NCBI GenBank assembly: GCA_003577275.1
Contig: QEVO01000001.1
Location: 496,001-560,000 of the forward strand
Direction of reading: 5' to 3'
Length of the DNA: 64,000 nt
Source of the DNA: Pseudomonadota bacterium
Lineage (GTDB): Bacteria; Pseudomonadota; Alphaproteobacteria; Sphingomonadales; Govanellaceae
The notes under the pieces: model-generated
Database searches by the model: none
What the model saw: the letters and a program-made list of their open reading frames with translations, nothing else
What the model was told of the DNA's origin: nothing
Position numbers and translations under genes: made by a program
Shown here: one piece after another, positions 36,431 through 53,080 of the stretch
Position numbering within the stretch: the stretch's first letter is position 1
Layout: each line of letters opens with the position of its first letter

Positions 36431-37093
36431 ATGATCTTTATGCGCGCCTTAAGATACCTTTCGCTCTGCCTGGGAGTTGCGGCGGCGGGCTGCGCCACCT
36501 CGCCCACCCGCGAGTTGTTGGCAGATTTCGGCGATCAGACCACCGCCTGGTCGGAGATGGGCATCTGCGCCGGCTATGGCTGCACCACTTATTACAAGCT
36601 GGGGCTTGATGCGGCGGAGGCGGGGCGCATCGTGGCGGCCTATGGCGCGCCAGCGGCGTCGCCCGCCGACGAACGGCAAGCCATCCGCCGCGCCATCGCT
36701 GAGATCGAGATCATCGTTGGGCCAAAGACCGGCACCGCCGGCGACGAGCCAGGGGCGGCCATCATCAACTTCTCCCGCCGCGGCCAGATGGATTGCATCG
36801 ACGAGTCGTTCAACACCACCACCTATTTAAGGCTGATGGAAAAGAGCGGATTATTACGCTTTCACCGGGTGGGCGAGCCGCTGCGGCGGGGCTATTTCCT
36901 GGATCGCTGGCCGCACAACACGGCGACGATCACCGACACTGCCGATAACCGCCGCTACGTGGTCGATTCCTGGTTTCACGGCAACGGCGTGCCGCCGGAG
37001 ATCGTGCCAGCCGAAGAGTGGCTAAAGGGCTGGCGCCCTGAAACCCAATTGCCGGCGCGCGCCGGCGGCCAGACCGCGGCTATCTCTCAATAG
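36431..37093 (+). CDS. Putative lipoprotein, function unknown
   Basis: A 217-220 residue exported protein (ATG at 36431 or 36440). The N-terminus LRYLSLCLGVAAAGC is a lipoprotein signal with the lipid-bearing Cys in AAGC. The mature part has conserved-looking motifs: GICAGYGCTTYYKL, a MDCIDESFNTTTYL segment and RYVVDSWFHGNG. A Cys, His and Asp in that order could form a papain/transglutaminase-like active site, but I cannot confirm this. It converges on the XRE repressor gene with a 7-bp overlap and is probably a host gene marking the left edge of the phage-like cluster. Confidence 0.75.
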   Translation: MIFMRALRYLSLCLGVAAAGCATSPTRELLADFGDQTTAWSEMGICAGYGCTTYYKLGLDAAEAGRIVAAYGAPAASPADERQAIRRAIAEIEIIVGPKTGTAGDEPGAAIINFSRRGQMDCIDESFNTTTYLRLMEKSGLLRFHRVGEPLRRGYFLDRWPHNTATITDTADNRRYVVDSWFHGNGVPPEIVPAEEWLKGWRPETQLPARAGGQTAAISQ

Positions 37094-37656
37094 CGGCGGA
37101 TCAGCATGGCGCGCCGCGCCAGCGAGCGTAGGGCGGCGTCGTAGGCCACGGCGGCGGCATCGCCCAGGCCAACCACGGTGTAGCGCCCCGGCGCTGTCCC
37201 CGCCAGCAACCGACCGTAGAGCCGCCGCCCGCCGTCCAGTTCGGCCAGACATTCCTTGCCCACGAGGCGCGCCGCTTCCGCCACCGGCACCGGCAGGCAG
37301 ATCACCGTGTCGCCGACCTGAAAGTCGGCGGTGGGCTGGGCAATTTTCAACGCCACGGCGCCCGCGCCCGGAGGATGGAGCGACAATGTTTCACCGTCGG
37401 CGGGGATGATTTCCCCGCCGGTCGATAAAGTGCCAGCGAAAGGCACCGGGCCATCGCCGTCCATCGGCATCAGCTCGGCCACCGAGCACTGCAGCGCCGT
37501 GGCGATCTTTTCCAGCCAGTCGAGGGTGACCTTGCGGCTCCCGGTTTCAAGCCGGCCAATGGTCTGCGCCGTGGTCGGCTGGGGCCGGATTAGCGCGGCA
37601 ACCTGATGAAGGGTCAGACCTTTTTGCTTGCGAATCTCGCGTATTTTATTGTGCAT
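37087..37656 (-). CDS. XRE-family repressor with S24-like C-terminal domain lacking catalytic serine
   Basis: A 189-residue phage-type repressor. Residues 3-62 are an XRE helix-turn-helix (IRKQKGLTLHQVAALI, TAQTIGRLETGSRKVT). The C-terminal part (about 90-160) has the LexA/CI-like beta fold (ALKIAQPTADFQVGDTVIC, LVGKECLAELDGGRRLYGRL), but the position of the S24 nucleophile (GDSM in LexA) reads AQPT, so RecA-stimulated self-cleavage is not expected. It is divergent from the DUF6456 gene, with ACCAA/TTGGT sites in the gap and AGAGG before the ATG. By position it resembles RogA, which represses the GTA activators in Caulobacter crescentus; orthology is not proven. Confidence 0.85.
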   Translation of the reverse strand: MHNKIREIRKQKGLTLHQVAALIRPQPTTAQTIGRLETGSRKVTLDWLEKIATALQCSVAELMPMDGDGPVPFAGTLSTGGEIIPADGETLSLHPPGAGAVALKIAQPTADFQVGDTVICLPVPVAEAARLVGKECLAELDGGRRLYGRLLAGTAPGRYTVVGLGDAAAVAYDAALRSLARRAMLIRRY

Positions 37657-37685
37657 GCTAAACCTCTTTAGCCAGTTTTAAGGCA

Positions 37686-37718
37686 TTTTTGGTTTTATTT
37701 CAATCACAAAACCAAAAA
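37686..37718. promoter_or_regulatory. Operator-like inverted repeat in the divergent regulatory region
   Basis: TTTTTGGTTTT (37686-37696) and AAAACCAAAAA (37708-37718) are exact reverse complements with an 11-bp spacer. The centres of the half-sites are two helical turns apart, as for a dimeric repressor. Another ACCAA lies at 37724-37728 within ATAACCAA (37721-37728), the same 8-mer found at the structural promoter. Confidence 0.65.
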
Positions 37719-37742
37719 ATATAACCAATATGGAAAAAATTA

Positions 37743-37771
37743 TTGACAGCCCAAAGTTTTCAATGATAGCT
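37743..37771 (+). promoter_or_regulatory. Candidate promoter for the DUF6456 gene
   Basis: TTGACA (37743-37748) is a perfect -35. A poor -10 (GATAGC or ATAGCT, 37765-37771) follows after 16-17 bp. A strong -35 with a weak -10 suggests a promoter needing help or relief from repression. Confidence 0.45.
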
Positions 37772-37780
37772 GCAAAATGT

Positions 37781-37791
37781 ACCAATTTGGT
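37781..37791. promoter_or_regulatory. ACCAA-T-TTGGT palindrome just upstream of the DUF6456 gene
   Basis: ACCAATTTGGT is a perfect odd palindrome between the candidate promoter and the GGAGG site. A bound repressor here would block transcription of the DUF6456 gene. Confidence 0.55.
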
Positions 37792-37809
37792 GAATTTATG
37801 GAGGCGGAC

Positions 37810-38616
37810 ATGCGGCAAAATACAGCGGTCGATACCCGGAGCTCGGCGGAGCCCGTCAGCAGGCGGGCGGCGCGACTCCTGCTGCGGCTGAGCGCCGGCG
37901 AGACGGTCCATGCCACTGACGACGGTGTTTTCTTCGGCGGCGAAGACGTGACGGCGGAGGTGGCGGCGCTGATCGCCCATGATCTGGCGGCGCGGGACCG
38001 TCGGGGCGGCGTGCGGCTGACCGCGCCCGGCGCCGGTTACGCCAAGCGCCTGGCCGCGCGCTCGGCCCTCCGCCGCGCCGGTCGGCAGGGGGATGCAGCA
38101 GCGCTGGCGGTGATTGCGCCGTATCGCGATCAACATCAAGACATCGATATCATGATGGCGTCCGATGGCGACAAAGTCGCAGAACGGCGCTTTTTCAACC
38201 ATCGGGAATGCCCGCTGGCTTGGCTGCGCCGGCGTCGCGACCGGGCTGGCCGGCCGCTCATCGCCGACCGCCAGTTCGAGGCCGGCATGCGCTTGCGTAA
38301 CGACTTCGAGCGCGGCGGTCTATCGCCGCGGGTCACCGCCTCCTGGAGCGCGCTGCCCGTGGGCCGCGCCGGGGCGGCAAGCCGGCGCGGCGGCCTCGAT
38401 CCCAGCGACAGTCAGATGAGCGCCCGCCAGCGCTTCCGCCGCGCCGTCACCGCTCTGGGGCCGGGCCTTGCCGAGGTGGCGATCCGCACCTGCTGCGCTT
38501 ATGAGGGGCTGGAAGCGGTAGAGAAGAGCCTGGACTGGCCGGCGCGCTCGGGCAAGGTGGTGTTGAGCTTGGCTTTATCTCGGCTGGCCGATTATTACGG
38601 AATTGGAAAAAAATAA
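37810..38616 (+). CDS. DUF6456 protein, candidate GTA activator/antiterminator
   Basis: A 268-residue protein. The N-terminal region (about 15-100) looks like a winged helix. The DUF6456 domain spans 133-266: ECPLAWLRRRRDRAGRPLI, LRNDFERGGLSPRVTASWS, ALGPGLAEVAIRTCCAYEGL and WPARSGKVVLSLALSRLADYYG. The ATG at 37810 has GGAGG five bases upstream; an ATG at 37777 has none. The C-terminal part is of the kind compared with sigma region 4 in GafA. My recollection is that DUF6456 belongs to the GafA/GafZ lineage, but I cannot search. Its stop codon lies inside the operator of the structural promoter, so it is tightly linked to the genes it would control. Confidence 0.8.
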   Translation: MRQNTAVDTRSSAEPVSRRAARLLLRLSAGETVHATDDGVFFGGEDVTAEVAALIAHDLAARDRRGGVRLTAPGAGYAKRLAARSALRRAGRQGDAAALAVIAPYRDQHQDIDIMMASDGDKVAERRFFNHRECPLAWLRRRRDRAGRPLIADRQFEAGMRLRNDFERGGLSPRVTASWSALPVGRAGAASRRGGLDPSDSQMSARQRFRRAVTALGPGLAEVAIRTCCAYEGLEAVEKSLDWPARSGKVVLSLALSRLADYYGIGKK

Positions 38617-38633
38617 CCAAATAGGTTATTTTT
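38609..38633. promoter_or_regulatory. Perfect 10-bp inverted repeat beside the structural-gene promoter
   Basis: AAAAATAACC (38609-38618), five bases AAATA, GGTTATTTTT (38624-38633). The arms are exact reverse complements. The left arm contains the DUF6456 stop codon, and the right arm ends 3 bp before the -35. A further GGTTAT at 38657-38662 overlaps the -10, 33 bp from the right arm. The 8-mer ATAACCAA is shared with 37721-37728. The U-rich right arm could also weakly terminate the DUF6456 transcript. Confidence 0.65.
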
Positions 38634-38636
38634 ATA

Positions 38637-38665
38637 TTGACTAATAAAACGCTCATGGTTATACT
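38637..38665 (+). promoter_or_regulatory. Near-consensus sigma-70 promoter of the structural cluster
   Basis: TTGACT (38637-38642), a 17-bp spacer, TATACT (38660-38665): one mismatch to consensus in each hexamer. It is the best promoter in the window and points into the terminase genes, with a leader of about 110 bases. Confidence 0.75.
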
Positions 38666-38716
38666 TTAGTCAAGATCGAGAAAAAGGTTCGCAGGCGCCA
38701 TCGCGCCGATGATACG

Positions 38717-38750
38717 AAAGGCCGCTCCCGCTAGAGAGCGGCCTTTTGCT
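38717..38750 (+). terminator. Intrinsic terminator in the leader of the structural cluster (attenuator)
   Basis: AAAGGCCGCTC (38717-38727) and GAGCGGCCTTT (38736-38746) pair perfectly over 11 bp around an eight-base loop, and the downstream arm runs into TTTT. It lies between the promoter at 38637 and the terS start at 38781, so it would stop transcription before the first structural gene unless bypassed. Confidence 0.8.
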
Positions 38751-38780: not shown

Positions 38781-39239
38781 ATGGCGAAGGCCACGAGCTG
38801 GACGCCGCGCAAGCGCGGCCAATTCCTCAGCGCGCTGCGCAAAACCGGCAATGTCACGGCGGCGGCCGAGGCGGCGGGACTGTCGCGCAGCCAGGCCTAT
38901 CAGCTGCGGCGCAGCGACGACGGTTTTCGCCAGGATTGGGACGACGCTTTGCAGGCGGCGATCGATGATCTGGAAGAGGAGCTGCGGCGCCGCGCGCTGC
39001 ACGGCGTCGAGCAGCCGATCTACTATGGCGGCAAGGAATGCGGCCGGGTGCGGACCTATAACGATGCCCTGGGGATGTTCTTGTTGCGCGCCCGCCGCCG
39101 GGAGCTGTTCGACAAAGCGGGCGAGGACGGATCGGCGGTCTCCATCGACGCCTCGCCGCTGGCCGAGATCCAAGAACGCTTGAAGCGCCTGCGCGCCCGT
39201 CAAGCCAAGGGCCGCAAGTCGGATGGCGATAAGCCGTGA
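38781..39239 (+). CDS. Terminase small subunit (GTA g1-like)
   Basis: A 152-residue DNA-recognition component of the packaging motor. The N-terminal helix-turn-helix (SALRKTGNVTAAAEAAGLSR, SQAYQLRR) is typical of small terminases. The middle and C-terminal helices (DLEEELRRRALHG, FLLRARRRELFDKAG) form the oligomer. The start at 38781 (MAKATSW) has GAGGA upstream; a longer frame to 38709 would run through the attenuator hairpin. Its TGA overlaps the GTG of terL. Confidence 0.88.
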   Translation: MAKATSWTPRKRGQFLSALRKTGNVTAAAEAAGLSRSQAYQLRRSDDGFRQDWDDALQAAIDDLEEELRRRALHGVEQPIYYGGKECGRVRTYNDALGMFLLRARRRELFDKAGEDGSAVSIDASPLAEIQERLKRLRARQAKGRKSDGDKP

Positions 39240-40564
39240 CCGGCGATGAGGAGGGGCAACGCTCGCTGGCCGAAGTCATGGCCGCTCTGCCGACGGGCGA
39301 TGAAGCGGATATCCTGGGCGCGCTGAAGGTCGCCGACCTTACGGAGCTTCTTTATGAGTGGCGGTTCTGGGCCCGACCGCAGCAACTGCCGCCGCCGGGA
39401 GAATGGGCAACCTGGCTCATTCTGGCCGGCCGCGGCTTCGGCAAGACCCGCACCGGGGCGGAGTGGGTGCGCGGCCTGGCGGAACACGCCGGCCCCGGTT
39501 TTCGCATCGCGTTGGTGGGAGAGACGGCGGTCGATGTGCGGCAGGTGATGGTGGAGGGCGAATCCGGTCTCCTGCCCTGCGCCCGGCCGGACTTCAGGCC
39601 CCGCTTCGAACCGTCGAAGCGCTGCCTCACCTGGCCCCAGGGGGCGCAGGCTTTTCTCTACTCGGCGGACGATCCGGAGCAATTACGCGGACCGCAGCAT
39701 CATGTGGCTTGGTGCGACGAGCTGGCGAAATGGCGGCGCGCCGGGGAGACGTGGAGCAACTTGCAACTGGGCCTGCGTCTTGGCGAGCGGCCGCAAGTAG
39801 TGGTGACGACGACGCCCCGGCCCCTGAGGCTGCTGAAAGACTTGCTCGCCGATCCGATGACGGTGGTGACCCGCGGCTCGACCTACGACAACCGCGGCAA
39901 TCTGCCGTCGGCTTTTTTCCGGCAAGTGGTGGAAAAGTATGCCGGCACGCGGCTGGGCCGGCAGGAGATCGAGGCCGAAATTCTGGAGGATACCCCGGGC
40001 GCGCTGTGGACGCGGGCCTTGTTGCGGGCCTGTCGCGCCACCGCTGCGCCGGTCATGCGCCGGGTGGTGGTGGGCGTCGATCCGCCGGTGACCGGCGGTG
40101 AGAAGGCCGACGCCTGCGGCATCGTGGTGGCCGGCGAGGGCGAGGACGGCCGCTATTACGTGCTGGAGGATCGCACCACGGTGGGAGCCAGCGTCCACGG
40201 CTGGGCGCGGGCGGCGGTCGCCGCCTATCACGACCATGAAGCCGACCGGCTGGTGGCGGAGGTGAACAATGGCGGCGATCTGGTGGCCGCCGTCATTCGC
40301 CAGGTTGATCCAACCATCAGCTATCGCGCGGTGCGGGCCAGCCGCGGCAAATGGGCGCGCGCCGAACCCATCGCCGCCCTTTATGAACAGGGCCGGGTCA
40401 GCCACCTAGCGGCCATGCCGGCGCTGGAGGATCAGATGGCCAGTTACGCGCCGGGCGGGGATATGGCCTATGGCAGCCCGGACCGGTTGGACGCCCTGGT
40501 GTGGGCGCTGAGCGAATTGGCGCTCGGGATGAGCGCCAATCCGCGATTACGAACGATCGGTTAA
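39236..40564 (+). CDS. Terminase large subunit (GTA g2-like)
   Basis: A 442-residue packaging motor with an N-terminal ATPase and C-terminal nuclease. Walker A LAGRGFGKT is at 63-71 and Walker B-like VAWCDELAKW follows. The RNase H-fold nuclease acidic residues sit in VVVGVDPPVTG, LVAEVNNGGD and SPDRLDALVWAL. In GTAs this motor packages host DNA headful-wise. All motifs are intact. It starts with GTG in a GTGA overlap with terS and ends 8 bp before a convergent passenger gene. Confidence 0.95.
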   Translation: MTGDEEGQRSLAEVMAALPTGDEADILGALKVADLTELLYEWRFWARPQQLPPPGEWATWLILAGRGFGKTRTGAEWVRGLAEHAGPGFRIALVGETAVDVRQVMVEGESGLLPCARPDFRPRFEPSKRCLTWPQGAQAFLYSADDPEQLRGPQHHVAWCDELAKWRRAGETWSNLQLGLRLGERPQVVVTTTPRPLRLLKDLLADPMTVVTRGSTYDNRGNLPSAFFRQVVEKYAGTRLGRQEIEAEILEDTPGALWTRALLRACRATAAPVMRRVVVGVDPPVTGGEKADACGIVVAGEGEDGRYYVLEDRTTVGASVHGWARAAVAAYHDHEADRLVAEVNNGGDLVAAVIRQVDPTISYRAVRASRGKWARAEPIAALYEQGRVSHLAAMPALEDQMASYAPGGDMAYGSPDRLDALVWALSELALGMSANPRLRTIG

Positions 40565-41197: not shown

Positions 41198-42418
41198 ATG
41201 AGTTCATTCAGTGAGCGCGTAAAGCGCCTGTTTTGGCCAAGCGGCGCGCCGATCGAGGCCAAGCGAAGCGCCGTCGCCGGCCTCTTGGGCAGCGAATTTT
41301 CCACCTGGGTCGGAACGGCGGGGCCGCGCTGGACCAGCCGCAATTATCGCCGGCTGGCCGAGGAGGGCTATCGCAAGAACGTCATCGTCCACCGCTGTGT
41401 GCGGCTGATCGCCGAAAGCGCCGCCTCGGTGCCGTGGCGGCTGACCCGCAACGGCAAGGCCATCGACCGTCACCCGCTGCTTGACCTCCTCAATCGCCCC
41501 AACCCGATGGAAGCCGGCAAGGCGCTGTTTGAAAATTTCTATGCCTTCTTAAGCATCGCCGGCGACAGCTATCTGGAGATGGTGACTGCCGCCGACGGCG
41601 CGCCCGCCGAGCTATACGTGCTGCGGCCCGATCGTATGAAAGTTATTCCCGGTCCCAGCGGCTGGCCGCGCGCCTATCGCTATGAGGCCGGCGGCCAGGT
41701 CCACGATTTCGCGGTCGATCAGCTGACCGGCCAGTCGGCGGTTTTGCATATGAAAACCTTCAACCCGCTGGACGAGACTTACGGAATGTCGCCCCTGGAA
41801 GCCGCCGCCTTCGGCATCGACATTCATAATGCGGCCAGCGGCTGGAACAAGGCGCTGTTCGACAACGCCGCCCGGCCATCGGGCGCGCTGGTCTACGAAC
41901 CGGGCGACGCCGGCCACTTGAGCGATGAGCAATTCGCCCGGCTGAAAGAAGAGCTTGCCGATACCTACCAGGGTGCGCTCAATGCCGGCCGCCCCATGCT
42001 GTTGGAAGGCGGCTTGAAATGGCAGCCGATGGCGTTCTCGCCCCAGGACATGGAGTTCGTCGAGGGTAAGCATGTGGCGTCCCGCGAGATCGCTCTGGCC
42101 TTTGGCGTGCCGCCGCTCCTTCTCAATATCCCCGGCGACAATACCTACGCCAACTACCAGGAAGCCAATCGCGCGCTGTGGCGGCTGACGCTGCTGCCGC
42201 TTCTGGAAAAGACGGTTTGCGCTCTTAATCACTGGCTGGTGGATGATTTCGGCGACGGCCTGGCGCTCGACATCGATCGCGACGCCATCTCGGCGCTGCA
42301 AGCGGAGCGCGCCGCCGCCTGGGAGCGGGTCGGCGCCGCCCGGTTTTTGACCATCAACGAAAAACGCCGGGCGGTGGGCCTGGAGCCGCTCCCCGGCGGC
42401 GACGTTCTAGTGTCCTGA
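41198..42418 (+). CDS. Phage portal protein, HK97 family (GTA g3-like)
   Basis: A 406-residue portal that forms the dodecameric DNA channel at one capsid vertex. Typical HK97-type motifs: NVIVHRCVRLIAESAASVPW, HPLLDLLNRPNPME, VLHMKTFNPLDETYGMSPLEAA and FGVPPLLLNIPGDNTYANYQEA. GAGAGG precedes the ATG. The last codons and the TGA lie within the left arm of a palindromic element (42407-42484), so the C-terminus VLVS comes from the insertion. The length is still about that of the RcGTA portal. Confidence 0.94.
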   Translation: MSSFSERVKRLFWPSGAPIEAKRSAVAGLLGSEFSTWVGTAGPRWTSRNYRRLAEEGYRKNVIVHRCVRLIAESAASVPWRLTRNGKAIDRHPLLDLLNRPNPMEAGKALFENFYAFLSIAGDSYLEMVTAADGAPAELYVLRPDRMKVIPGPSGWPRAYRYEAGGQVHDFAVDQLTGQSAVLHMKTFNPLDETYGMSPLEAAAFGIDIHNAASGWNKALFDNAARPSGALVYEPGDAGHLSDEQFARLKEELADTYQGALNAGRPMLLEGGLKWQPMAFSPQDMEFVEGKHVASREIALAFGVPPLLLNIPGDNTYANYQEANRALWRLTLLPLLEKTVCALNHWLVDDFGDGLALDIDRDAISALQAERAAAWERVGAARFLTINEKRRAVGLEPLPGGDVLVS

Positions 42419-43410: not shown

Positions 43411-44001
43411 ATGTCCACACCGCTTGCCACAAGCGGCGCCATGACGCGCGCCGACGGCGGCTATTTTGCCGGCTATGCCAGCGTCTTTGGCCGCATCGAC
43501 AAGGGCCGCGATATCGTCGTGAAAGGCGCGTTCGCCCGCTCCATCGCCGAGCGGGGGCCGCGCGGCATCAAAGTATTGTGGCAGCATGATCCGCGCGAAC
43601 CCATCGGGGTTTTGGAGGAGATTCGCGAAGACGATTACGGGCTGTTCGTGCGCGCCCGCTTACTGCACGACGTGCGCCGCACCAGCGAGGCGCGGGCGTT
43701 GTTGCAGGCGGCGGCCGTCGATGGGTTGTCCATCGGCTATAAAACCGTTGCCGCCGATACCGACGATCGCACCGGCGTACGCCAGTTGAGGGATGTCGAT
43801 CTGTGGGAAGTGTCATTGGTCACCTTCCCGATGCAGGAAGCGGCGCGGGTGGTGCAGTTCAAGAGCGCTGCCGGGTGGGTCGATGTCGTCCGCGCGCTGC
43901 GGCAATTCGAATGGGGAATGAGCGAGCTCGCCATCCGCGCGCGGCATCGGCTGGGCACAACCCCACATTTTAAGGTCACAGACACAAGGAGGTTCATATG
44001 A
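43411..44001 (+). CDS. HK97-family prohead protease (GTA g4-like)
   Basis: A 196-residue capsid maturation protease of the herpesvirus-assemblin-like fold. It has FAGYASVFGRIDKGRDIV, the catalytic His in KVLWQHDP, the Ser in VDGLSIGYKT and the Glu-bearing LWEVSLVTFPM. It removes the scaffolding arm of the capsid protein. It overlaps the capsid start by 4 bp (ATGA). Confidence 0.94.
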   Translation: MSTPLATSGAMTRADGGYFAGYASVFGRIDKGRDIVVKGAFARSIAERGPRGIKVLWQHDPREPIGVLEEIREDDYGLFVRARLLHDVRRTSEARALLQAAAVDGLSIGYKTVAADTDDRTGVRQLRDVDLWEVSLVTFPMQEAARVVQFKSAAGWVDVVRALRQFEWGMSELAIRARHRLGTTPHFKVTDTRRFI

Positions 44002-45242
44002 CCGCTCAAGAGTTCGACTCTCCCGATACCCGGGAAGTCAAGGCCGCCGTCGACGCGCTGGGACGCGCGTTTGAGGATTTCAAGGCCGTCAACAACGCAG
44101 CGGATGCCGAACACGCGCGGCATGGCGCTATCGATGTGGTGCTGGAAGAAAAGGTGGAGCGCCTGAACAAGGAGGTCTCCGGCTTGAGTGGCCGGCTGGA
44201 ACGTTTGCAGCTTGCCATCAATCGGCCGCACCGCGAGGGACGGAGCGAGATCTCCGGCCCGGCGGCCGAACATAAGCGGGCGTTCTGCGATCGTTTCATG
44301 CGCAAGGGTAATGAACAGGGCTTGCAGGAGCTGGAGGAAAAGGCGCTCTCCATTGGCGTCGGCGCCGACGGCGGTTATGCCGTGCCGCAGGAGATCGATC
44401 AGAAGATCGACGCGCGGCTGAAGGATTTCTCGCCCATTCGCCGCCTGGCGACGGTGGTGCAGATCGGCTCAGCCAATTACCGCAAGCTGGTCAATCTAGC
44501 GACCGGTGCGTCAGGCTGGGTGGGCGAAACGGCGGCGCGGCCAGTCACGGCATCCACCCAATTTGCCGAAGTGGCGCCGCCGCTGGGCGAGATCTACGCC
44601 AACCCGGCGGCCACCCAGGCGATGCTCGACGATGCCTTCTTCGATGTCGAAGCGTGGCTGGCGGAAGAAATCGCCGCCGAATTCGGCATTCAGGAAGGCG
44701 CAGCCTTCGTCAGCGGCAACGGCACCGATAAGCCGAAAGGATTTTTATCCTACACCACGGCGGCCACCAATGACGCCGGCCGCGCTTTCGGCACGTTGCA
44801 GCATGTGGTGACTGGCGTAAACGGCGGCTTTCCGGCCAGCAATCCATCGGACATCCTGATTGATCTTGTGCATGCCCTGCGGCCTGTCTATCGCGGCGGC
44901 GCAGCGTTCGTGATGAACACCAATACCATCTCGCTCATTCGCAAGTTCAAGGATTCCACCGGCGATTATTTGTGGCGGCCGGGCCTGGGCGAGGCCGGAC
45001 CGGCGACGCTGCTCGGCTATCCGCTGATCGAAGCCCAGGATATGCCGGACATCGCCACCAACAGCCTGTCCATCGCCTTCGGCAACTTCGAGCGCGGCTA
45101 TATCATCACCGACCGCACTGGCGTGCGCGTGTTGCGCGATCCGTTCTCGAACAAACCTTATGTGCATTTCTACGCCACCAAGCGCGTTGGCGGCGGCGTG
45201 GTCAACTCGGAAGCGATCAAGCTGTTGAAATTCTCCGTCTAA
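43998..45242 (+). CDS. HK97-family major capsid protein (GTA g5-like)
   Basis: A 414-residue HK97-fold capsid protein. The N-terminal ~100 residues are a charged coiled-coil delta domain (VDALGRAFEDFKAVNN, EEKVERLNKEVSGLSGRLER), expected to be cut off by the upstream protease. The mature part has YAVPQEIDQKIDARLKDFS, the E-loop/P-domain region (VGETAARPVTASTQFAEV) and AFGNFERGYIITDRTGVRV. A hairpin follows the stop. Confidence 0.96.
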   Translation: MTAQEFDSPDTREVKAAVDALGRAFEDFKAVNNAADAEHARHGAIDVVLEEKVERLNKEVSGLSGRLERLQLAINRPHREGRSEISGPAAEHKRAFCDRFMRKGNEQGLQELEEKALSIGVGADGGYAVPQEIDQKIDARLKDFSPIRRLATVVQIGSANYRKLVNLATGASGWVGETAARPVTASTQFAEVAPPLGEIYANPAATQAMLDDAFFDVEAWLAEEIAAEFGIQEGAAFVSGNGTDKPKGFLSYTTAATNDAGRAFGTLQHVVTGVNGGFPASNPSDILIDLVHALRPVYRGGAAFVMNTNTISLIRKFKDSTGDYLWRPGLGEAGPATLLGYPLIEAQDMPDIATNSLSIAFGNFERGYIITDRTGVRVLRDPFSNKPYVHFYATKRVGGGVVNSEAIKLLKFSV

Positions 45243-50713: not shown

Positions 50714-53080
50714 ATGTATTGGCTCGCCACGGCGGCGGATCAGCGCGAGCGCGCCTATATACGCCGCTTCAGCCCGCCCTACTGGACGGTGAACTTCCCG
50801 CGGCCGATGATGGCGGCGGTCAGCGCCACCTCGGCTGCGAGCCTGGCGGTCAAACTGGTGTTCTTGAAATATAATGACCTTGCCGGTCTGATTTGGAACT
50901 CCGTCGATCCGTACGATCACCCGCTGTTATCTTATGAGACGCGCAAAGATTACTCTGGCGTGGTGTGGTCGTTTCGCTGGCAAAGCGACGGCCTGAAGGG
51001 GCTGGATGCGGTCAATGGGCCGACGTTGACCATCGAAGGCCGCGATGCCTTGGGCGCGGCCAAGACCTGGTACGTGCGGTTATGGAATTACGCCGTCGGC
51101 ACCGCCACGGATGCCATCATCACCCTTGATTTCGATGATCTTGATGGCGGTTTTCTGTTGCCGTCGGAAGCCGACCCGGTTTATCCCCGGGACATCGACC
51201 GGCTGTTCATCAGTCTGGTGGCCGATGTTTACAATCCGTCCAATAGCGCCCCCATTGAGCCCTCGCCCGGCGTTTTTGCCGAACACGTCGCCGATCTGAC
51301 CCTATCGCAAATCAACGTCAGCGGATCTCGCGCCATGCTCGCCATCGGCGACGGCCATGTGAAAGTGCATGACCTGCGGCTCGCCAACGGCTATGACGAT
51401 GTCTACAACGTGACGCCAGCGCGGGTGATGCGCAATGCGCTCTACCTCGGCTATCGCGACTGGATCGATCATTACCTCGGCATGAGTCACTATTTCTCGC
51501 TCACCTGGAACGCCGGCGAGGCGCGCTTCGTTATTGACCCGACCAAAGCAAAACTTAACCCGGCAGCGGACCTGTGGCATCAGGATTTTCTCGCTCAGGC
51601 TAAAACGTATGGCTTCAAGGTCGTCCTGTCGCTATCATACGAACTGTTGGATGATCATGCCCCTGCCGCCTGGAAACAGCGCACTCATGACGGCGGCGCG
51701 GCGCAGACCGGCTGGTCGCCGCCGTCGACGCTGATCGCTCCCACCAATTCAACAGCGCTCTCGTATCTGCGCGACGTCTGGCTGGCGCTGGCCGGCATCC
51801 AGTCATCCTTGAGCGCAGCGATCATTTTCCAGATCGGCGAGCCGTGGTGGTGGCACCAGCTGACCGGCGATCAAGCGCCGTGCTTTTATGACGCGACGAC
51901 GACGGCGCTTTATACCTCGGAGACCGCCAATCCCGTGCCGGCCATGCACCAGTCGATTTTTGACACACCCACCCCGGCGCAGCAGGATTATCTGGATTGG
52001 CTCGGCGGCAAACTTGGCGCATCGACGCTGTGGCTTCGCGATCAGCTCAAGGCAACTTACCCGGCGGCGGACGTGACTTTGCTTTTTTATGCGCCGCAGG
52101 TGCTCAATCCGGCGGCGCCCATGCTCCTAAGCGTCAATTATCCCGTTGCGTCGTGGGTCTACCCCGCCTTCGATTTTTTAGAGATCGAGGATTACGATTA
52201 TGTGATTGATGGCGATTGGCCGCAGCACGCGGCGGGCTTGGCGGCCATTGCCGATGACTTAGGCTATGGCCCGGCGGACAGTCATTATTTCTCAGGCTTC
52301 AATCTGCTGCCCAATATGCCGCAGGTGTGGGCCAACATCGATCAGGCGATATCGGATGCGCGCGCGCGCGATTTTGCCGAGGTCTTTGTGTGGGCTTATC
52401 CGCAAATTTTGCGCGACGGCTTTGTCTATTTTGCCGATCAGGAGGATGACGTGACAGGCTTTCACGAGGTGCGCTTCCCCGAGGCCATCAGCTTCGGCTC
52501 GTCGGGCGGCCCGCGCTTTGCGACCACCGTGGTGGAGACCATCTCCGGCCATGAGCAGCGCAACGCCGACTGGCAGCAGGCGCGCGCCGTCTATGATGTC
52601 GGCACCGGCCTTAAAACCGAAAGCGATCTTTTCGCACTCCTCGCTTTCTTTCGCGCCCGTCAGGGCCGGGCCTACGGTTTTCGCTTCAAGGATTGGTCGG
52701 ATTTTCGCTCCGCTGATCCCGGCGTCGCGCCAACCCCCACCGACCAGGCGATCGGCGTTGGCGATGGCGCAACGACGGCGTTTCAACTGACCAAGCGTTA
52801 TGTCAGCGGCGCGACCGTCTTCGATCGCGTCATTCGCAAGCCGGTCGCCGGAACGGTGCGCGTGGCGCTCAACGGCGTCGAGGCGGTGAGCGGTTGGAGC
52901 GTGGATGCGGCCACCGGCGTCATCACCTTCACGACGCCGCCGGCGGTGGGCGTTGCCGTCACCGCCGGTTTTGAGTTCGATGTGCCGGTGCGTTTCCGCG
53001 ATGATAGCCTGGCGATTTCCCTGGAAACCTTCGCCGCCGGCGATGCGCCGTCGGTGGGACTGATCGAGGTGCGGCTCTGA
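50714..53080 (+). CDS. Fusion: sheath/TIM-barrel-like region + DUF2460 distal tail protein (GTA g12-like)
   Basis: A 788-residue protein. The C-terminal ~205 residues (from EVRFPEAISFGSSGGPRFAT near 585) are DUF2460, the whole of g12 in RcGTA. In front are about 580 extra residues: a beta N-terminal region (WTVNFPRPMMAAVSAT, RLWNYAVGTATDAIITLDFD), then a TIM-barrel-like hydrolase fold from about 245 (FLAQAKTYGFKVVLSLSYEL, AAIIFQIGEPWWWHQL, FLEIEDYDYVIDGDW, FAEVFVWAYPQ), with acidic residues at strand ends as in glycosidases. The N-terminal part resembles proteins called non-contractile tail sheath in some databases (recalled). It may coat the tail or degrade surface glycan. It overlaps g13 by one base. 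Confidence 0.82.
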   Translation: MYWLATAADQRERAYIRRFSPPYWTVNFPRPMMAAVSATSAASLAVKLVFLKYNDLAGLIWNSVDPYDHPLLSYETRKDYSGVVWSFRWQSDGLKGLDAVNGPTLTIEGRDALGAAKTWYVRLWNYAVGTATDAIITLDFDDLDGGFLLPSEADPVYPRDIDRLFISLVADVYNPSNSAPIEPSPGVFAEHVADLTLSQINVSGSRAMLAIGDGHVKVHDLRLANGYDDVYNVTPARVMRNALYLGYRDWIDHYLGMSHYFSLTWNAGEARFVIDPTKAKLNPAADLWHQDFLAQAKTYGFKVVLSLSYELLDDHAPAAWKQRTHDGGAAQTGWSPPSTLIAPTNSTALSYLRDVWLALAGIQSSLSAAIIFQIGEPWWWHQLTGDQAPCFYDATTTALYTSETANPVPAMHQSIFDTPTPAQQDYLDWLGGKLGASTLWLRDQLKATYPAADVTLLFYAPQVLNPAAPMLLSVNYPVASWVYPAFDFLEIEDYDYVIDGDWPQHAAGLAAIADDLGYGPADSHYFSGFNLLPNMPQVWANIDQAISDARARDFAEVFVWAYPQILRDGFVYFADQEDDVTGFHEVRFPEAISFGSSGGPRFATTVVETISGHEQRNADWQQARAVYDVGTGLKTESDLFALLAFFRARQGRAYGFRFKDWSDFRSADPGVAPTPTDQAIGVGDGATTAFQLTKRYVSGATVFDRVIRKPVAGTVRVALNGVEAVSGWSVDAATGVITFTTPPAVGVAVTAGFEFDVPVRFRDDSLAISLETFAAGDAPSVGLIEVRL

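Follow-up and report, generated by a model that had tools for sequence, protein, structure and literature searches.

Gene-transfer agents (GTAs) kill the cell that produces them, which makes the way they are kept in check a central question. To our knowledge, GTA repression is known in detail for Caulobacter and Rhodobacter only. The locus described here raises the question of which protein keeps such a cluster silent in a member of the Sphingomonadales, and through which sites on the DNA.

Gene content of the locus

The window, i.e., the whole stretch of 64,000 nucleotides that was analysed, belongs to a 3.25-Mb genome in 14 contigs (88.6% complete) whose closest named relative is the metagenome-assembled genome (MAG) Sphingomonadales bacterium BROCD004 (88% identity of the DUF6456 protein). 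The gene order is XRE on the minus strand followed on the plus strand by a DUF6456/GafZ-like gene, TerS, TerL, portal, capsid and tail genes. The XRE-family (HTH_3) regulator, a possibly RogA-like protein of 189 aa and the proposed repressor, is encoded at 37087-37656 (Pfam HTH_3, E 3.2e-11). The GafZ-like DUF6456 protein is encoded at 37810-38616 (Pfam DUF6456, E 1.1e-47); the start at 37810 was favoured over 37777, and GGAGG lies at 37800-37804. GafA homologues are described as annotated DUF6456 proteins (PMC9638019). The DUF6456 model also matches the Caulobacter control genome, and a search of viral contigs with the DUF6456 protein gave no matches. TerS is the first gene of the particle operon (38781-39239; PHROG 4044, E 4.4e-33), and TerL (39236-40564; Pfam Terminase_6N/6C), portal (41198-42418; Pfam Phage_portal, E 2.8e-88) and major capsid (43998-45242; Pfam Phage_capsid, E 6.1e-88) follow on the same strand. 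With TerL, portal, capsid and tail genes in order and Rcc01698_C among the Pfam matches, the cluster is, as judged from its genes, an RcGTA-like GTA. A GTA_holin_3TM gene is present at a remote place in the same genome.

Inverted repeats in the window

An earlier note had proposed that AACC(AA)/GGTT half-sites link the regulator promoters to the structural promoter, and all five strings that it listed are present where it had placed them. Measured against dinucleotide shuffles, AACC/GGTT was in excess in 38600-38700 (4 vs 0.7, P 0.0005) and not significantly so in 37657-37809 (4 vs 1.7, P 0.066). Dyads of the form ACC-N5-GGT or AACC-N5-GG numbered two vs 0.06 in 37657-37809 (P 0.009); the count of two in 38600-38700 is one site matching two alternative forms. 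The half-sites belong to real, recurrent palindromes that resemble binding sites, but the unit is the spaced dyad ACC-N5-GGT and not loose AACC/GGTT. The shared 8-mer ATAACCAA does occur at both 37721 and 38613, but with 27 genome copies (16 + 11, vs 37 for the reversed control) it is uninformative alone and was dropped as a marker. The mismatch-free TAACC-N5-GGTTA has a single occurrence in 3.25 Mb, at 38614.

Three operators are predicted from the dyads. Operator 1, ATAACC-AATAT-GGAAAA (37721-37737), has its last G 9 nt before a TTGACA and is conserved in the sister species (L010); operator 2, ACC-AATTT-GGT (37781-37791), lies near the predicted gafZ transcription start; and operator 3, AAAAATAACC-AAATA-GGTTATTTTT (38609-38633; a 10-bp inverted repeat, P 0.011), is centred at about -51 of the structural promoter. 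The sister species keeps 37721-37733, 37781-37791 and 38609-38633, with one change, at the centre of the last. Across the 1302 AT-rich positions in the window, four separate places carry the dyad, and three of these are sites of the earlier note; the fourth, at 50877, has three G/C among its five centre bases. The long inverted repeat TTTTTGGTTTT/AAAACCAAAAA (37686-37718; 11 bp, P 0.006), whose left arm lies inside the predicted spacer of the XRE promoter, is present but not conserved, its right arm being lost in the sister species. GGTTAT at 38657 does overlap the -10, but would amount to no more than half of a weak site, AACG-CTCAT-GGTTAT (38648-38662), which has one mismatch to AACC-N5-GGTT and reads ATAACG-CTCAT-GGTTAT in the sister species. 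It may be part of a weak second operator, in the register of the second dyad of the lysis promoter described below.

The dyad between XRE and gafZ

The comparison set comprised 60 genomes, 30 of which (own genome included) have a DUF6456 relative; the 30 span six families and are related, not 30 independent events, and two (G041 and G022) are very close. When 1344 (64 x 21) trinucleotide dyads were ranked without bias, ACC-N5-GGT came first, occurring in 15 of 20 XRE-gafZ intergenic regions, and the top tetranucleotide dyad was AACC-N5-GGTT (11 of 20). One of the forms ACC-N5-GGT, AACC-N5-GG or CC-N5-GGTT was found in 28 of 29 such regions (shuffles: mean 3.5, maximum 8), the contig of the thirtieth genome stopping short of XRE. 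No strict form of the dyad was found upstream of XRE in L055.

Most loci outside family f5 have a pair of dyads around the gafZ promoter, 24-25 bp from each other and in many cases arranged as TTTACC-N5-GG..TATAACC-N5-GG. These are read as covering both promoter boxes of gafZ, -35 and -10, which should keep RNA polymerase out and suggests XRE as the repressor of gafZ. In the window the predicted -35 of this promoter is TTGACA (37743-37748, plus strand), which is conserved in the sister species. A divergent XRE promoter is predicted on the minus strand as TTGAAA (37698-37703), a 17-nt spacer and TAAAAC (37675-37680); its hexamers are nearly conserved in the sister species, which lends the prediction weak support.

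The dyad at the structural promoter

The structural promoter, as defined from 20 aligned promoters, consists of TTGACT (38637-38642), a 17-nt spacer and TATACT (38660-38665) on the plus strand. Aligned on the -35, all 20 promoters have TTGAC and a 17-nt spacer, and 17 conserve a G at -14. Their top dinucleotide dyad was CC-N5-GG, which ends 9-12 nt before the -35 in 19 of the 20, vs 0.21 in shuffles. When the ten promoters of family f5 were added, so that every genome with a DUF6456 match was represented, the dyad ended 9-12 nt before a TTGAC(A) -35 in 28 of 30 (shuffles: mean 0.30, maximum 3), and the two imperfect dyads read CC-N5-TG (G052) and CC-N5-AG (G046). From the last G of the operator to the -35 the distances in the window's own genome are 9 nt (gafZ), 11 nt (structural) and 9 nt (lysis).

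The first transcribed bases are also conserved, as CAAGATC in the window (38671-38677, plus strand) and CATGCTC in the order consensus; this element, CAtGcTC, is order-wide in the 20 aligned promoters and could be a pause or loading element. The pattern TTGACANNCGTNACG, scanned in 296 genomes, matched 43, and seven of the 30 matches examined as loci were GTA promoters, all previously in the set. In G052 a divergent small ORF, to which no function was assigned, lies between the structural promoter and TerS (L031, about 780-1280).

Unlinked clusters and the lysis operon

Ten genomes of family f5 have the particle cluster away from the XRE-gafZ pair, by about 37 kb (G055), about 80 kb (G046), or hundreds of kb or on another contig in the others. 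Their structural promoters have TTGACA followed by a CGTnACGCT-like sequence in 10 of 10 and the dyad in nine of 10, and the dyad lies just upstream of the XRE gene in 11 of 11 f5 cases examined. The same site at unlinked loci favours a diffusible regulator over duplication of a stretch. These comparisons strongly support the view of the earlier note that regulator gene and particle operon are under the control of one DNA-binding protein, the same spaced dyad occurring at both places in six families and also where the two are unlinked. In G029 and G049 (L220, L221) the best TerL match is partial, suggesting decayed clusters; promoter and operator are kept.

The form ACCW5GGT has 13 sites in the window's own genome and 17 in the reversed control, so there is no genome-wide excess. 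Two of the 13 lie in the GTA locus; another (C6:62044) is in an AT-rich stretch, 31 bp from a further dyad, and both of these are conserved in the sister species. These two dyads are upstream of a Peptidase_M15_3 (endolysin) gene and the GTA_holin_3TM gene, a predicted pair of release genes as expected of a GTA. The promoter is read as TTGAAA-N17-TATAAT, with one dyad 9 nt before the -35 and the other inside the spacer. The suggestion of the earlier note to look for palindromes near lysis genes was thus borne out. The lysis sites were examined in one genus, and none of nine further sites in G003 lies at a lysis operon. The other ten ACCW5GGT sites were not accepted, most being inside long open frames; two of them lie before a threonine-dehydratase-like frame and near a tRNA-like stretch (functions assigned by eye).

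The probable binder of the dyad

An HTH was found in 22 of 22 XRE proteins, and conservation across the order is high in the stretch of the recognition helix, TTAQTIGRLETG. For XRE proteins encoded next to gafZ in other orders the alignment spans the full length, at 27-31% identity. RogA pairs its HTH with a LexA/CI-like C-terminal domain; here an S24 domain was not matched in the C-terminal half of the protein in Pfam and PDB profile searches, and structure models from two-row alignments (pLDDT 42 and 46) were set aside.

The XRE profile (A2) had a single match per genome in seven of 18 genomes and no match in five genomes of family f4, four of five of family f8, G184 and G128. Two of these genomes separate the candidates. 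G184, from another order, has a DUF6456 gene adjoining TerL and keeps TTGACT and the TGTCACGCT spacer; in spite of its GafZ/DUF6456, neither an XRE match nor the dyad was found. G016 (f8) has neither a DUF6456 nor an XRE match, and its promoter has TTGACA without the spacer dyad and without CC-N5-GG. On these genomes, each a single case, the dyad was assigned to XRE and the spacer dyad to the DUF6456 protein; XRE rather than the DUF6456 protein is the likely binder of ACC-N5-GGT. The match in G010 (L245, f8), partial and weak at 62.6 bits, is a weaker XRE relative in a genome without a DUF6456 match.

GafZ without GafY

GafZ of Caulobacter corresponds by homology to the C-terminal portion of GafA (PMC9632790). 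Three relatives from the same class but other orders (L142, L145, L146) have a GafY gene between XRE and gafZ, and G080 has GafY in fused form. The GafY gene that marks a GafY/IHF-activated GTA was not found in the order: the GafY profile matched only full-length DnaA in 29 of 30 genomes and had no match in G039 (64% complete). The same profile recovered true GafY at E<1e-27 in three control genomes outside the profile (G179, G115, G198); GafY was likewise not found in G184 and G128, outside the order. A PF08299 probe matched only DnaA in 12 genomes, and since it was not validated on GafY the profile with held-out controls was used.

Within the spacer of the structural promoter (38643-38659, plus strand) lies a dyad, AGCGTnACGCT, for which 66 of 100 cells are complementary across 20 promoters (next best centre, 41). 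It is degenerate in the window (one of five pairs) and in L056 (none of five). Caulobacter GafZ is described as requiring a palindrome between -35 and -10 (PMC11150451). AGCGTnACGCT, the proposed GafZ loading site, occupies the same place, and in the window only its right half, ACGCT (38649-38653), is left. Downstream, in the leader before TerS, is a terminator hairpin with a T-run (38715-38748, plus strand; -24.4 kcal/mol, z -5.9); in the sister species the stem is conserved, the loop changed and the T-run short. A strict scan found a clear terminator in seven of 19 leaders, to which the sister species can be added by its stem, so the leader terminator is not universal. Antiterminators of the GafZ kind read through terminators together with NusA/E/G.

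Proposed circuit and alternative explanations

We consider it quite probable that the dyad is the binding site through which XRE represses three promoters (gafZ, structural and lysis), and that GafZ acts as an antiterminator. In resting cells an XRE dimer would occupy the ACC-N5-GGT sites of the divergent XRE/gafZ promoter region and would also sit some 51 bp ahead of the particle operon's start and at the remote endolysin-holin promoter, keeping all three targets off. Departure of XRE would turn on gafZ together with the particle and lysis operons. GafZ would then load at the structural promoter, between -35 and -10, and let RNA polymerase pass the leader terminator. A GafY-type activator would not be needed because the -35 boxes are consensus or near-consensus. 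The dyads, their positions, their co-occurrence and the lysis sites come from genome comparison, and from them we infer the binder, repression at the structural promoter and antitermination by GafZ. Repression at the structural promoter would perhaps operate via blocked alpha-subunit contacts, but an operator near -51 leaves the core promoter uncovered and makes repression less obvious there than at gafZ. Also against the proposed circuit are the degenerate spacer dyad in the window and L056, the scarcity of strict leader terminators, the imperfect structural dyads of G052 and G046, the missing strict form in L055, and lysis sites that come from one genus, the nine sites of G003 being negative.

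Phage lambda CI activates a neighbouring promoter, and XRE bound to the same sites might similarly activate the structural promoter from -51 while repressing gafZ. The site is upstream of the core promoter and its distance from the -35 is almost fixed, as for contact with RNA polymerase. Nevertheless, this alternative is unlikely: with a -35 at or near consensus and the conserved -14 G an activator seems unneeded, the second operator of the lysis promoter is in the spacer beside a perfect TATAAT, and there would be little point in activating the particles and at the same time repressing their antiterminator. It is hardly credible that 38609-38633 is simply the gafZ terminator, or that the repeats are by-products of AT-rich intergenic DNA. 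The repeat and the gafZ stop codon overlap, and the repeat has a folding energy of -8.7 kcal/mol, but its outer arms are noncomplementary in most relatives (GGAAA, GGCAC, GGATA), several relatives have it well away from the end of any gene, and its frequency across the 30 promoters is far from the shuffled mean.

Two further alternatives keep the sites and change the binder. The gene for the DUF6456 protein sits between the two site clusters and Caulobacter GafZ is a DNA-binding protein (PMC11150451), so this protein might itself bind ACC-N5-GGT at all the promoters. We regard this as very improbable and disfavour it as the dyad binder, since G184 has DUF6456 and the spacer dyad but lacks both XRE and the ACC-N5-GGT dyad, Caulobacter GafZ is reported to bind the structural promoter only (PMC9632790, PMC11150451), and the dyads beside the f5 XRE genes and at the lysis operon would be left unexplained. 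A third, host factor such as IHF, which acts at Caulobacter GTA promoters (PMC11150451), or another regulator is, if anything, a shade less probable still: the dyad is missing where XRE is missing (G184, G016), although host factors are presumably still there, and 28 of 29 regions have it next to the XRE gene.

Comparison with known systems

The control region with XRE as proposed repressor resembles that of Caulobacter crescentus in its XRE-family, possibly LexA-like, putative repressor over gafZ, DUF6456 protein and RcGTA-like cluster, and probably in the palindrome, degenerate in the window, within the structural -35/-10 interval with a terminator downstream. The Caulobacter structural promoter is described as having a poor -35 and requiring GafY and IHF, a near-consensus -35 swap as making it GafYZ-independent, and GafZ as carrying polymerase past terminators (PMC11150451). 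Unlike in Caulobacter, GafY was not found here, the -35 is consensus or near it, and an operator lies at the structural promoter itself. RogA is reported to bind no more than two promoters, those of gafYZ and CCNA_02002, at GGAA-N4-TTCC (PMC9632790), whereas the sequence here is ACC-N5-GGT and is found at the structural and lysis promoters as well. Caulobacter CdxB is likewise one XRE repressor coupling GTA activation and lysis genes; it acts on gafYZ and lypABC, and holin-endolysin reportedly was not found there (PMC13236601). In contrast to CdxB, the sites here are on the gafZ, structural and holin-endolysin promoters. In Rhodobacter capsulatus the C-terminal part of GafA is reported to bind the RcGTA promoter (PMC9638019). 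GafA fuses GafY and GafZ, of which the GafZ part alone was found here.

Phage lambda uses one repressor, CI, at several operators, and an antiterminator, Q, loaded at the late promoter before a leader terminator. The element here is a GTA, and its likeness to lambda would be one of circuit logic. We give about equal weight for and against the broader proposal that the order runs its GTA phage-style, in which a single XRE repressor would gate the regulator, particle and holin-endolysin promoters directly, a GafY-less GafZ would be a Q-like antiterminator at AGCGTnACGCT, and the activator layer would have been lost with the move to consensus promoters. In searches of the open-access literature we recognised no paper with this operator, with a GafY-less GafZ, or with an XRE repressor that acts directly at the structural or holin promoter of a GTA. 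The locus offers a predicted operator at base resolution, a predicted regulon with lysis genes, a simpler circuit testable by one deletion, and a natural comparison for when GafY is needed or not.

Other genes of the window

An ORF upstream of XRE (36431-37093) is conserved and lipoprotein-like and had zero Pfam, NCBIfam or PHROG matches; relatives are found close to the cluster in L010, L041 and L157, the last being in a genome without a DUF6456 match. A tail protein of 788 aa (50714-53080) combines NCTSP_N, a TIM-barrel NCTSP domain and DUF2460.
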